Assembly (NCBI GenBank): GCA_023245895.1
Contig: JAHFJJ010000008.1
Coordinates: forward strand, 7,594-45,900
Source of the DNA: Candidatus Doudnabacteria bacterium
GTDB taxonomy: Bacteria > Patescibacteriota > Doudnabacteria > UBA920
DNA: 38,307 nucleotides
Reading direction: 5' to 3'
Program-made: the position numbers and the translations under genes
Part shown: piece after piece, positions 28,879 through 37,391 of the stretch
Numbering within the stretch: position 1 is the first letter of the stretch
Layout of the letters: the number at the start of each line of letters is the position of its first letter
The notes under the pieces: generated by a model
Seen by the model: the letters and a program-made list of their open reading frames with translations, nothing else
Told to the model about the DNA's origin: nothing
The model's database searches: none

Positions 28879-29273
28879 GGGGATGACGGATTTTGACAGG
28901 ACTTTGACATCTTCTAATACGCAAGACGAGCAACGCATTTGGTAACTCGTAAAACTGCCTAAGTGTACTCTAAATGCTAACGCATTTTCTAAGGTAAAAG
29001 AAGCTTTGGCTAACGCCTTTGCTCCTGTACCTGTTCTCGCTTAATTTTAAGCTAGAGCCCCGCCTCCCGATGTGCCTCCATCGGGAACCAGCAGGTTCAT
29101 TAGAGGCTGCTGTTAATGGATTTGATTTGCACCCACTAACCTAAGACCCGTAAATCGCCCTTGATGATTATTTGTCAGTTGATTCCATCAAGGCATTCCA
29201 ACTGACTAATCTTGTGAACAATTAGAAGCTGAACAAGTTTTGGACCCGGGTTTAACTCCCGGCATCTCCACCA
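28879..29273 (+). ncRNA. ssrA: tmRNA
   Basis: A one-piece tmRNA of 395 bases that rescues stalled ribosomes. The 5' end GGGGATG pairs with CATCTCC before ACCA; the third pair is G-U, the alanine identity element. 'GACGGATTTTGACAGG' is the typical D-like start. The tag frame probably runs from GCT at 28976 to TAA at 29042-29044, 22 codons, beginning ANAFSKVKEA and ending APVPVLA; the exact resume codon is a guess. The T-arm is CCGGG-TTTAACT-CCCGG, with T where C56 is normally found. The 3' 68 bases are also antisense coding sequence of a serine recombinase. Confidence 0.95.
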
Positions 29274-30795
29274 GATTGTTTTTTGAATTGTCTAACTCCT
29301 CAATTAGCGCAAAAATATCAGGTAATTCTGGTGTTTGAAACCCTGCTTCTGGTTCATACACCAATTTTTTAGGGAAATACATATTAATTAGCAATGTTTT
29401 ATTGCCCAATTCAGGGTTTTCCCATTCTTTGACAGGGTTCTGAATAAAGTTTAACACTTCTCTCAAGGCCGTTAAAAAGTCGTCTTGGGAGTATTTTATT
29501 TTAGCCAGTTCCTGCTTTAAGCCTTCAATCTTAACCAAGTTACCGGCCATAGCGTTTTCGTATTGCCCCACTAGGGAGGGATTTGTAGCATTGGGGATTC
29601 GGGCCAAGTAGCCAGAGTTGGTGTGTTCTAAGTCCAAAATTTGCTTTCTTAGGCCGTTTTGATATTCTCCTTGGGCTTGCTTCCGCTTATTCCACAAATC
29701 GCTAAGCACAATTTCGGCCCCTTTAACTGCCTCTTTCAAGGGTTCAGTTTCTTTTAACAATTTTATAAAATCTACATCCATCTTATCCTTTGCGACTGAA
29801 CCGATACATCCTTTCGTTTTGCAAATGTAGTATGGGTACTTAACTCCGCGTTTATTTTTGAAATGCGCGGCTGTTAGATTGTGCTGGTTTAGACAAACCA
29901 CAAATCCACGCAACGGAAAATCATTACTGTAATCTTTCCGGGTTCGGGGTTTGGCAGAAGCATTTAAATGTTCCTGTACCGCAAGGTAGGTTTCGTAAGA
30001 AATAAAACCCTCATGTTGGGCTTTCATTCTCTCAACTCCCCACGGCGCATACTCTAAATATCCGCAATACAAAAGTTCAGTTAAAATTTCTTTTACCCCA
30101 TGCAACGCCAAAGGCCGATTGATGTTATTCTCCGCGTACTTAGATAAAACAAATTGTCGCACTTCTTCAAGCGTGCTTAATTCATAGTCGCGATATTTTT
30201 CTATAGCCGATTTGTAAATGTCTGCAAAGGGTTCAACTGGCTTGAGAATTTTTCCCTTAATTGAATCCTTAAAATTTTTTAGCCCAGGCGGCGGACAAAA
30301 AGTCCAATAGCCTGCTTCAAGACGGGCCTTCATTTTATTTTTTACTTGTTCGGCCCCTTGTTCTCTCTCTAACTGGGCAGTCGCACTCATAATAGTTTCA
30401 ATCGCCCTGCCAATAGGAGTATTCTCAAACTTAAAATTTAAACATTCTAATTTCGCACCCCGCAACTTTACCAAAGCCGTTTTAAGCATAATATGCACTT
30501 CGGTACCTCTAGCAAGTCGTTTTAAATCATCAAATATTATTACGAACTTTTCGTTAGGGTGTTCATCCAAATAAGAAATCAAATTATTCATTGCGGGCCT
30601 TTCAAATAAGCCCCCGGACACACCGCCGTCAGGAAATACTTTCGCCACTTCTAACCCTAACTCACGGGCGCGATGAACACACCTTGCCTCTTGGCTGTCC
30701 AGCCCATGTCCTTCATTTACTTGGCGTTCGGAAGAAACACGGCAATAAATTAAGGCGCGTTTGTATTCAATAACACAGGGTTTGGTTTTGGCCAT
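29206..30795 (-). CDS. Large serine recombinase (integrase) ending inside ssrA
   Basis: A 529-residue site-specific recombinase. The resolvase domain (1-150) has the nucleophile Ser21 in 'IYCRVSSERQ', 'DGGVSGGLFERP' and 'IIFDDLKRLARG'. The recombinase domain follows (about 155-270, 'LEAGYWTFCPPPGL'). The zinc-ribbon region has 'FVVCLNQHNLTAAHF...YYICKTKGC' (about 295-335), where the first knuckle is C...H instead of CxxC. A coiled coil spans about 345-445. The last 23 residues or so ('PGVKPGSKTCSASNCSQD') are encoded antisense to the tmRNA 3' end, showing that the element lies in ssrA. It should integrate and, with a directionality factor, excise the element. Confidence 0.92.
   Translation of the reverse strand: MAKTKPCVIEYKRALIYCRVSSERQVNEGHGLDSQEARCVHRARELGLEVAKVFPDGGVSGGLFERPAMNNLISYLDEHPNEKFVIIFDDLKRLARGTEVHIMLKTALVKLRGAKLECLNFKFENTPIGRAIETIMSATAQLEREQGAEQVKNKMKARLEAGYWTFCPPPGLKNFKDSIKGKILKPVEPFADIYKSAIEKYRDYELSTLEEVRQFVLSKYAENNINRPLALHGVKEILTELLYCGYLEYAPWGVERMKAQHEGFISYETYLAVQEHLNASAKPRTRKDYSNDFPLRGFVVCLNQHNLTAAHFKNKRGVKYPYYICKTKGCIGSVAKDKMDVDFIKLLKETEPLKEAVKGAEIVLSDLWNKRKQAQGEYQNGLRKQILDLEHTNSGYLARIPNATNPSLVGQYENAMAGNLVKIEGLKQELAKIKYSQDDFLTALREVLNFIQNPVKEWENPELGNKTLLINMYFPKKLVYEPEAGFQTPELPDIFALIEELDNSKNNLVEMPGVKPGSKTCSASNCSQD
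29250..29264. other. Candidate attachment site in the tmRNA T-arm (recombinase-proximal)
   Basis: GTTTAACTCCCGGCA in the tmRNA matches GTTTAACTCCCCGCA at 35705-35719 with one difference. Serine integrases cut in a 2-base core of such sites. The distal copy does not restore a proper tmRNA 3' end, so the crossover point remains uncertain. Confidence 0.45.
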
Positions 30796-30925: not shown

Positions 30926-31120
30926 TGCTATTTAATTTTTTTGTGGCTTTTGATTTTAGTTTCTAAAAAATGAAAAAATTTATTGAACGATTGTACACAT
31001 TTTAGCATATTTCGCGTTTTGTGGCAAGAGTTTACTCAACATTTCAAGGCATTATAGCAGATTTTGTCGTTTGTAGCAATAGTATAATGACAACTTTTGG
31101 CTTAAGTGGTAAAATACTCA

Positions 31121-31264
31121 TACAATTTAATTGCCTAAACCCACAGCCCTAAGGCGCGGGCATGGCAGAAAAACCATTCGCATGTAGAGACGGCTGTCGT
31201 CTTGTCTTAACCATGCGAATGGTCACTACCCGAAAGGGTTGTGGGGCAAGCGGCAGCCCTTTTT
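31121..31264 (+). ncRNA. Folded leader RNA with possible terminator switch
   Basis: A -10 box TACAAT lies at 31121-31126 (with TTGGCT 18 bases before). The RNA then contains CCCACAGCCCT (31140-31150), which can pair with AGGGTTGTGGG (31235-31245). It also has a perfect 12-bp stem ACCATTCGCATG/CATGCGAATGGT (31173-31184 with 31212-31223) with an inner AGACG/CGTCT hairpin, a GAAA-capped ACCC/GGGT hairpin (31228-31239), and GGGTTG...CAGCCC-TTTTT (31236-31264), an intrinsic terminator. The last two compete with the first pairing. The 198-residue protein gene starts 26 bases later. Confidence 0.5.
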
Positions 31265-31289
31265 GATTGTCCGCAGAAAGTGATTAGTT

Positions 31290-31886
31290 ATGGAAGTCAA
31301 TGATAAATTAGAAAATATTGTGGCCAAGAATCAGTCAAGCATTGATTATTATTTAGCCATAATGGCCCAAAATTTTGAACGGGGGCCTGAGTTTGTAAAA
31401 GAAGGCGATTCTTACACAATGAAAAACTCAAAATACAACAAGTCTTTGGCTTGGGATTGTTTTGAAATTATTATGGAAAATAACGGTTTTGATACAAAAC
31501 ATCCTATGTTTTTTGCTGCCGTTAATTTCGCTAATACCGACTCCTCCAAAGTGTGGCAGGACTTTAAAAAGTATTTGGATGAACTGTTTGAAAAAAAACT
31601 TACTTCTTTGCGCGAAGAACAAAAAGAGAAAGCATTAAATACATGTAGTGATTTAATTGAAAAATTTTTGATTATAGCGGAAAAGAAAGTTTCAAATCTT
31701 GATGAATATAGCGAGGAGGCTTGGGAGGCTTTACCTGTGGAAGTGGAAGTATGTACAAAAAAGATTATCAATAAAAATACTGGATTAACCCAACTTGATA
31801 AAGAATGGATTGTAAATAAACTTACAGAACGTTTCAAATTATTCCATAAAAATCATTCCGATTTAAAAACACTTCTAAACAATTAG
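31290..31886 (+). CDS. Uncharacterised 198-residue helical protein of the element
   Basis: A soluble, almost entirely helical and strongly charged protein. It contains 'SIDYYLAIMAQNFERGPEFV' near the N-terminus and a long helix 'FEKKLTSLREEQKEKALNTCSDLIEKFLIIAEKK' (in part). No family is recognised. It is preceded by the folded leader and followed after 11 bases by the zinc-ribbon gene, which is probably on the same transcript. Ribosome site weak or absent. AT-rich and Lys/Glu-rich, like the other element genes. Confidence 0.6.
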   Translation: MEVNDKLENIVAKNQSSIDYYLAIMAQNFERGPEFVKEGDSYTMKNSKYNKSLAWDCFEIIMENNGFDTKHPMFFAAVNFANTDSSKVWQDFKKYLDELFEKKLTSLREEQKEKALNTCSDLIEKFLIIAEKKVSNLDEYSEEAWEALPVEVEVCTKKIINKNTGLTQLDKEWIVNKLTERFKLFHKNHSDLKTLLNN

Positions 31887-32428: not shown

Positions 32429-33223
32429 ATGCCAATGCGCGCTTGTGAAAAATGTTTTGAAAACAACTGGAAATATAAAACAATTGAAGATATTATCCGT
32501 GCTACCTGCAATCTTTGCGGACACGAGGTTGAGTTCGCCTCAAGGAAAAAAGCAGGTAAAGCAAAGCAAGAAACAGAACTAAAAGAAGGTTCGCCATGTA
32601 GAAAATGTGGCGCAAAAATTATTCTTAAAGAACCCAAGAAGCACAAAACCAATACTGCTTACTATTTTTCCGCATACTATTTTTGCCCCAAATGCAAAAC
32701 AATGTATATGGCTGAAAAATTTAAAGTTTGGAATGAAGCAGGCGAAGAAAAAACTAAAACAACTAAAGGCAATCAGGGTGGAATTTTGGATATGATTAAA
32801 GCAACATCCGAAGCACGGCCTATCGCCTTAGAGGATGACAATGCACCTAAACAAACATTTTATTGTGACGCTGGTACTCAAAATAATGGCCAATTTGGCA
32901 ACCAAAAAACTGTTGTGGTTGTCACTGATGTGACTGGAAAAGTTTTAGTGGAAGAACATATCGGGGACAAAACTAATAACGAAGGAGAGTTAATTGGTAT
33001 TCTAAAGGCGACTAGTCTTGCGCCAAGTCACTCTGTCATTCTTTCGGATTCTCAATTGGCAGTGAATTGGGCAAAAGGCCGTTATAAAACAAGAATTGAT
33101 AGATTAAAGCCTTTAGTCACAGAAGTAAAAAATGCCGTTAAAGAAAAGGGTGTGGAAGTAAAATGGATTCCGAGAGAAGAGAACCAAGCGGGAATATATA
33201 TTGAAAATACCCATTCTCTCTAG
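32429..33223 (+). CDS. RNase H-like protein with N-terminal zinc ribbons
   Basis: A 264-residue protein. The N-terminus holds at least two zinc knuckle pairs: 'CEKC' (6-9) with 'CNLCG' (27-31), and 'CRKCG' (57-61) with 'CPKC' (86-89). The C-terminal half is an RNase H fold: Asp147 in 'FYCDAGTQNNG', Glu187 in 'TNNEGELIGI', Asp207 in 'ILSDSQLAVNW'. The usual last acid in 'N..AD' is 'NQAGIYIE', so Asp is replaced by Gly255, with Glu259 as a possible substitute. It would cut RNA in RNA-DNA hybrids if active. In the element it may act on replication intermediates or on invading nucleic acid. Confidence 0.78.
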   Translation: MPMRACEKCFENNWKYKTIEDIIRATCNLCGHEVEFASRKKAGKAKQETELKEGSPCRKCGAKIILKEPKKHKTNTAYYFSAYYFCPKCKTMYMAEKFKVWNEAGEEKTKTTKGNQGGILDMIKATSEARPIALEDDNAPKQTFYCDAGTQNNGQFGNQKTVVVVTDVTGKVLVEEHIGDKTNNEGELIGILKATSLAPSHSVILSDSQLAVNWAKGRYKTRIDRLKPLVTEVKNAVKEKGVEVKWIPREENQAGIYIENTHSL

Positions 33224-34147: not shown

Positions 34148-34759
34148 ATGCGTCACAACCACCAAAGTCCTCTTTTTAGCGAAGCTAGCCTAGATAGTTA
34201 TTTAAGAGATAAAATTGAAACATTAGATACTGACATACAAAGTCTAAGCGGACAAAAATTGATGAATACAGACGAAGCTACTTTAGTTAAAGAATTCGTT
34301 GATAGATATACTTTAAACGCCCCAAAATTAATAGAAGATAAAAAAATTATTGACGCACAAGAGGCAGATGTTACAGTTAGGGGAAATTTTGATTTTGATG
34401 AAGGCCCCTTTAACATTAAAGGTTTAGCAATTACTATAAAAATTCCAATTACCGGAGATGCTGAATTACTTCATTTAAGGCCAACGTCTTATACATATTC
34501 TATGGGCCATCAAGGCGATGTATTAGTACAAAAAGAACTATTGGTTTTAACTTATGAAACAGCAGAAAAACAACCTGAGAAAATTAAACAAATGTGGCAA
34601 CAGGATTTGGAAATAATAAATAAAAATTTGATTAATATTGAACGCGATTTAGCAAACTATAACAGTTCCCTTCAAAGTAACGTTAATTCTATGTTGTCAA
34701 AGCGAAAGAAAGAATCCGGTAACAACCAGTCATTAATTGATGCTATAAAACTAGGCTAA
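34148..34759 (+). CDS. Uncharacterised 203-residue cargo protein (first gene of a tight pair)
   Basis: A soluble protein. An N-terminal helical part ('SEASLDSYLRDKIETLDTDIQSL') is followed by a beta-rich middle ('FNIKGLAITIKIPITGDAELLHLRPTSYTYS') and a C-terminal helix bundle ending 'MLSKRKKESGNNQSLIDAIKLG'. This plan resembles the N-terminal module that in other bacteria, as I recall, is fused to an effector domain; here the second domain would be the next gene, whose ATG lies one base after this stop. That link is an inference from memory. AT-rich, no clear ribosome site. Confidence 0.55.
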   Translation: MRHNHQSPLFSEASLDSYLRDKIETLDTDIQSLSGQKLMNTDEATLVKEFVDRYTLNAPKLIEDKKIIDAQEADVTVRGNFDFDEGPFNIKGLAITIKIPITGDAELLHLRPTSYTYSMGHQGDVLVQKELLVLTYETAEKQPEKIKQMWQQDLEIINKNLINIERDLANYNSSLQSNVNSMLSKRKKESGNNQSLIDAIKLG

Positions 34760-36790: not shown

Positions 36791-36815
36791 AAAATACCCT
36801 AATGGGTGTTTTTAG
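36791..36815. terminator. Terminator after the tRNA fragment and the HicA-type gene
   Basis: AAAATACCC / GGGTGTTTT stem with TAAT loop. It overlaps the HicA-type stop codon and serves both directions. Confidence 0.75.
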
Positions 36816-37051
36816 TAATTGTTCATTATTTTAGACGCGTCGTAACCAAGCTCTTCGGCTTGTTTGAGTTTGTCTTTTAAAACCTGTTTCCAAATTTTAG
36901 ACTGCAGAGTAATAAATTTCTTGGTTTTAGGACAAATAAGTTTGTAATGTCCGCCCTTGCCGCCGGAAACATCCAAAACAAAACCTGCCTTTTCAAAAGC
37001 TCTGGCAAGCCGCTTTTGGGAAATATCCGAAGGCAGGTTAGGTGGTAGCAT
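36812..37051 (-). CDS. hicA: HicA-type mRNA interferase toxin
   Basis: A 79-residue protein with the HicA double-stranded RNA-binding-like fold: 'SDISQKRLARAFEKAGFVLDVSGGKGGHYKL' (in part) including the catalytic His35 after Gly-Gly. 'KFITLQSKIWKQVLKDKLKQAEEL' matches the C-terminal helix region where HicA usually reads 'vPxHxgkelkxgtLrxIlKqagl'. The toxin cleaves mRNA and is neutralised by its HicB partner. It is slightly longer than typical HicA (about 60). It overlaps the upstream antitoxin gene by 14 bases. Confidence 0.75.
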   Translation of the reverse strand: MLPPNLPSDISQKRLARAFEKAGFVLDVSGGKGGHYKLICPKTKKFITLQSKIWKQVLKDKLKQAEELGYDASKIMNNY

Positions 37052-37391
37052 AAATCTTTTTGCTGGCGTTGGCTGTTTGTGTTTCTAGAAGCGGCGGATT
37101 AAAAACAATTAAATCCGCATTGCAGTATCTTGGAGGAACGCCAAAAGCCGTAAAAATCGCGTCTTTTAACTCCCTTTCCAGTTCATCCATTGTGTGGCCG
37201 GTCGCGGAAATATTGCCGCGGGGATAATCCACCGACTGGGCGTAAAAATATTTTTCACCATCTTCGTCAATAAAACTAATATCAAAATTCAAGCCGCGAT
37301 GACGAAGCTCTATTAACAAGTCGCTAATTTTCTCCTGGGCATATGCCGGAGTAGCTAAATAAGACTGTATTCTTTGGATTAAATGGTTCAT
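37038..37391 (-). CDS. hicB: HicB-like antitoxin
   Basis: A 117-residue protein. The middle ('GEKYFYAQSVDYPRGNISATGHTMDELERELKDAIFTAFGVP', in part) has the HicB partial RNase H-like fold: beta strands with 'D.P.....G.T..E....l..ai'. An N-terminal helical extension precedes it and the C-terminal tail lacks an obvious helix-turn-helix. It sits upstream of hicA, the reverse of the most common order, and the two overlap. An inverted repeat covers its -10 box, consistent with autoregulation. Confidence 0.68.
   Translation of the reverse strand: MNHLIQRIQSYLATPAYAQEKISDLLIELRHRGLNFDISFIDEDGEKYFYAQSVDYPRGNISATGHTMDELERELKDAIFTAFGVPPRYCNADLIVFNPPLLETQTANASKKIYATT

Follow-up and report, generated by a model that had tools for sequence, protein, structure and literature searches.

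The window (the whole 38,307-nucleotide stretch of DNA that was analysed) carries at 31132-31259, on the forward strand, a structured RNA which, by its match to the curated Rfam model, is a copy of LOOT (RF03000), a bacterial RNA family already catalogued. The apical segment of its long stem P3 (31185-31207) can pair along some 20 bp with a tail (31244-31266) situated just before and including a U-run. Strong covariation across 129 sequences supports this loop-tail helix, which is no part of the Rfam model. We give an even chance to the proposal that LOOT may be a bistable 5' leader attenuating the cargo genes of mobile elements, by a mechanism that we infer. An Rfam family without a function thereby gains a testable role from the covariation of the loop-tail helix, from the placement of LOOT ahead of cargo genes and from the copies of P3 found at start codons, and the results show how mobile elements of Patescibacteria may control such genes as those for methylases and exclusion proteins.

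Identity and architecture of the window copy

The cmscan match is full length (model positions 1-121) and scores 72.2 bits against a gathering cut-off of 46.4 (E 7.7e-12). The predicted fold of the stretch has an energy of -57.9 kcal/mol, compared with -42.0 kcal/mol for dinucleotide shuffles (z -3.9), and is better than all 200 of them. A sequence-only reading had placed a structured RNA here, and both results bear it out; the same reading had recognised no known class and had named a match to one as the refutation of that view, and comparison with Rfam returned LOOT. The family is presented as metagenome-based in the Rfam 14 paper (PMC7779021), two covarying pairs were added to it in Rfam 15 (PMC11701678), and 28 cross-covariations were remarked in it in the CaCoFold paper (PMC7657543); the passages on LOOT in these three papers give no function for it. 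Rfam types it as an sRNA gene and not as a cis-regulatory element.

Aligned to the model, the window copy has P1 with its CCUAA and AUGG strands, the long stem P3 and the P4 hairpin with its GAAA loop. The two arms of P3 (31173-31184 and 31212-31223) form in the predicted fold the perfect 12-bp stem with an inner hairpin that had been noticed from the letters, and the GNRA-capped hairpin noticed beside it is P4 (31224-31243), whose GAAA tetraloop occupies 31232-31235 and is kept in 129 of 132 homologues; both proved to be features of the family. The 5' and 3' strands of P1, GCCTAAAC (31133-31140) and GGCATGGC (31159-31166), resemble the two strands of the 11-nt GAAA-tetraloop receptor: CCTAA(A/C) is found in nearly all homologues and (C/T)ATGG in 123 of 133, so that the RNA consensus, CCUAA(A/C)/(C/U)AUGG, comes close to the canonical CCUAAG/UAUGG (PMC11381326). 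Docking of the P4 loop into this receptor-like motif of P1 is predicted. Several pairs of the P5 hairpin, which forms the 3' end of the Rfam model, are broken in the window copy; there the tail fills the P5 slot, as it does in related copies.

Upstream lies a sigma-70-like promoter (31087-31115, +), a consensus match of the form ATGACA-17-TAAAAT with TG before the second hexamer. It is followed by the conserved ACAATTTAAT (31122-31131, +), near which the RNA would be expected to start; of 132 homologues, 96 have CAAYT no further than 30 nt upstream. A general enrichment of promoters was suggestive only, a best -10 hexamer with at least 5 of 6 positions being present in 100 of 132 loci as against 65 in shuffles. 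Beyond the tail, GCAGAAAG (31273-31280, +) is by its position a possible weak ribosome-binding site, and it precedes the first cargo gene 3' of LOOT (31290-31886, +), which encodes a protein of 198 aa with no accepted family match and no PDB relative found by sequence. A further hairpin downstream of the tail (P6) was weakly supported, with 72 loci at -9 kcal/mol or better when 42.5 were expected, and was set aside.

The loop-tail helix and two predicted, competing folds

In the family the tail comes after P5, or after P4 in the subtype of the window. The covariation was scored at 18 chosen pairs in a MAFFT alignment of the 129 sequences that was built without structure information. Paired cells make up 86.4% of the total, against at most 49.0% when the pairing is slid; 17 of the 18 pairs vary on both sides; covariation scores 0.572, whereas the slid pairings reach 0.146 at most and the shuffled ones 0.279, and double-change cells number 351 against 112, some excess over the slides being expected in that the columns were picked from one member's duplex. 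A tail-swap test, which is independent of the alignment, gave a mean duplex energy of -26.5 kcal/mol for each sequence with its own tail and -16.3 kcal/mol with swapped tails, the own duplex ranking in the best 5% for 103 of 126 sequences. In the window copy the duplex of 31185-31207 with 31244-31266 reaches -27.5 kcal/mol, better than nearly all swapped tails. The mean length of the helix is 19.6 bp, and it encloses an interior of 60-70 nt.

An antiterminator and a terminator had been proposed from the window alone, with other partners. The former, pairing CCCACAGCCCT (31140-31150) with AGGGTTGTGGG (31235-31245), can indeed form here as 11 bp with one G-U (-22.2 kcal/mol), but is not conserved: 44% of cells are paired, against 38-45% when slid, and in the homologues the own duplex averages -5.7 kcal/mol against -5.5 kcal/mol when swapped. 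The latter, GGGTTG with CAGCCC just before TTTTT, can likewise pair in the window, but with 49% of cells paired it behaves in the family like the slid controls. Judged by these comparisons, the switch pair and terminator stem so drawn belong to the window copy alone, and the real alternative pairing is that of the P3 apical loop with the tail. The idea of mutually exclusive structures ending in a U-run is kept in the family, with different segments from those first named.

P3 and the full loop-tail helix should exclude each other, because the helix is too long to form fully within the P3-closed loop without a linker; this is steric reasoning and not a calculation. The predicted energies of the two states are near-equal, differing by 2.7 +/- 4.3 kcal/mol over 126 sequences, and in the window they are -57.7 and -55.2 kcal/mol; the unconstrained ensemble of the window copy strongly favours P3 (0.99, with 0.005 for the loop-tail helix). 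In the proposed leader, the first state would have P3 formed and the tail free, so that RNA polymerase would continue and the cargo gene would be expressed. In the second, P3 would be open and the apical segment and tail would pair over some 20 bp, setting a GC-rich helix against the U-run at which transcription would stop. Regulation would presumably use these two states through a shift in their balance, whatever might bring that shift about. The tails end U-rich (a mean of 6.2 of 9 nt), and many of them read CUUUGUGUU, a weaker U-run than that of a classical terminator. This weakness, the 60-70 nt interior of the helix, the ensemble's preference for P3 and the typing of LOOT as an sRNA gene all weigh against the leader.

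A shorter kissing contact between loop and tail would be compatible with P3 and could then be no more than tertiary structure. Extended to the whole complementarity, this notion would make LOOT a static RNA with a tertiary or dimer (kissing) contact and no switch, which might bind a protein or serve in processive antitermination. Phages are known to have put-like RNAs with an antitermination role, P3 is very stable, and the conserved GAAA hairpin together with the tetraloop-receptor-like P1 suggests a compact fold. Set against this, a complementarity of about 20 bp that takes in the U-run is far longer than a kissing loop, and no conserved partner protein was found beside LOOT across the homologous loci; we regard a static RNA as distinctly unlikely.

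Cargo genes, mobile elements and copies of the P3 arm

The homologue set comprises 133 LOOT copies from 90 genomes. LOOT is present in 35 of 145 relatives and in 84 of 381 genomes of the phylum, with up to seven copies per genome, and named records that carry it include Parcubacteria, Levybacteria, Uhrbacteria, Saccharibacteria and one other bacterium, as well as one contig labelled Bathyarchaeota, which may be a binning error. It occurs on two IMG/VR viral contigs; a stricter pattern scan returned three contigs, two of them confirmed as LOOT, and matches from short pattern scans of viral contigs and genomes were mostly noise. In genome G139, identical copies sit exactly at the ends of contigs C25, C40 and C88, which suggests that the repeated RNA breaks the assembly.

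Each copy appears to own a promoter and to precede a cargo gene. A same-strand ORF begins 10-260 nt after LOOT in 123 of the 133 loci, at 40-80 nt in 93 of them, a conserved position as for a cis-acting leader; four of the ten remaining loci sit at contig ends. The downstream genes are unrelated to one another. A strongly hydrophobic segment is encoded by 92 of the 123, and library matches include zinc-ribbon proteins, DNA methylases, staphylococcal nuclease homologues, DUF4352 and superinfection exclusion proteins, so that membrane proteins, methylases, secreted nucleases and exclusion functions stand beside many genes without assignment. Conserved core nucleotides, a compact fold and a second possible pairing ahead of a U-run are what would be expected of a riboswitch in the strict sense, and the sequence-only reading had named a cofactor, besides host state and infection, among the signals that might be sensed. 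The controlled genes, among them those for zinc-ribbon membrane proteins, share no pathway, and this heterogeneity argues against a sensor of metabolites or ions, which we consider most improbable.

The first reading had the RNA leading the cargo operon of a mobile element, a position that the neighbourhood supports. In the window a large serine recombinase (29206-30795, -; Pfam Resolvase 3.8e-22, Recombinase 0.0017) is divergent from LOOT, a layout, upstream and divergent, that recurs in 48 of 64 placements. Of the 133 loci, 59 have a serine recombinase no more than 6 kb away, against a background of about two Recombinase matches per genome; terminase or replication genes are near in 29 loci and a tyrosine integrase in 11, and at least one of these kinds of gene accompanies LOOT in 82 of the 133. 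The window recombinase ORF stops within the 3' portion of a tmRNA gene on the opposite strand (28879-29273, +), as if the element had integrated at the tmRNA gene with the integrase reading frame running into it. A search for an att repeat of the tmRNA end gave only an 11-bp repeat (29250 and 35705), at chance level. Other genes of the window include one for a cargo protein in which an RNase H-like domain is combined with an N terminus resembling a zinc ribbon (32429-33223, +; Pfam RNase_H 2e-07), one for a cargo protein matching half the profile of the candidate defence model PDC-S54 (34148-34759, +; PADLOC, E 1.6e-37), and two small adjoining genes at 36812-37391 (-), one weakly HicA-like, that are possibly a toxin-antitoxin pair.

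Among 129 loci, 26 have a second occurrence of the P3 5' arm (score at least 9) at the start codon of the gene that follows, where swapped arms predict 0.16. These loci are spread over about 20 genomes, and the copies come with a preceding A-rich linker and lie mostly within 10 nt of the start codon; several precede DNA methylase- or restriction-like genes. The arms differ among five loci of genome G364, and every one of them has its own corresponding copy. Such copies resemble addresses, and together with the Rfam type and the promoter-like site and U-run that flank the element they fit a free-standing, trans-acting sRNA with its 3' end at the tail; the following gene would then be only a neighbour or be reached by read-through, and the arm copies would be antisense target sites. 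This explanation, which we think unlikely, is opposed by the fixed gap to a same-strand gene in most loci and by the occurrence of arm copies only behind their own LOOT, matches elsewhere in the LOOT flanks being at chance level; moreover, a search of the genome for a second site of the window arm gave nothing convincing.

The bistable leader accommodates the copies otherwise. At these loci the P3 3' arm, freed in the second state, could also cover the start codon, and LOOT might then be a self-addressed two-layer switch in which a single refolding of P3 both creates a long-range terminator and releases an arm that covers its own start codon through the matching copy. We put this forward tentatively and with more doubt than belief; if it is true, every cargo gene has an orthogonal control RNA to itself. 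Two further points weigh against the leader: in the window the arm is not repeated at the start codon of the next gene, and full loop-tail pairing and pairing of the 3' arm with its copy would, at once, be a strained pseudoknot.

Comparison with known regulatory RNAs

With RF03000 as curated, the window copy shares P1/P2, the long P3 and the GAAA-capped P4, and differs in a P5 hairpin that appears degenerate in its subtype. The model stops short of the tail, and the loop-tail helix, the fixed distance to the cargo gene and the arm copies are absent from it; it could grow by about 20 bp through the helix. Transcription attenuators and riboswitch expression platforms offer a likeness in being 5' leaders with two competing structures, one of which sets a GC-rich helix against a U-run. 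In LOOT, by contrast, the helix that resembles a terminator joins distant segments, the 5' one of which lies in an apical loop, and the genes have no common pathway and the RNA no known ligand. Self-targeting antisense RNAs, such as those of type I toxin-antitoxin systems, are similar in having an arm complementary to the translation start of one gene, with addresses that differ between copies; LOOT differs from them in lying on the same strand as the gene, apparently in the same transcript, and the copy repeats a stem arm in direct orientation instead of coming from a convergent antisense gene.
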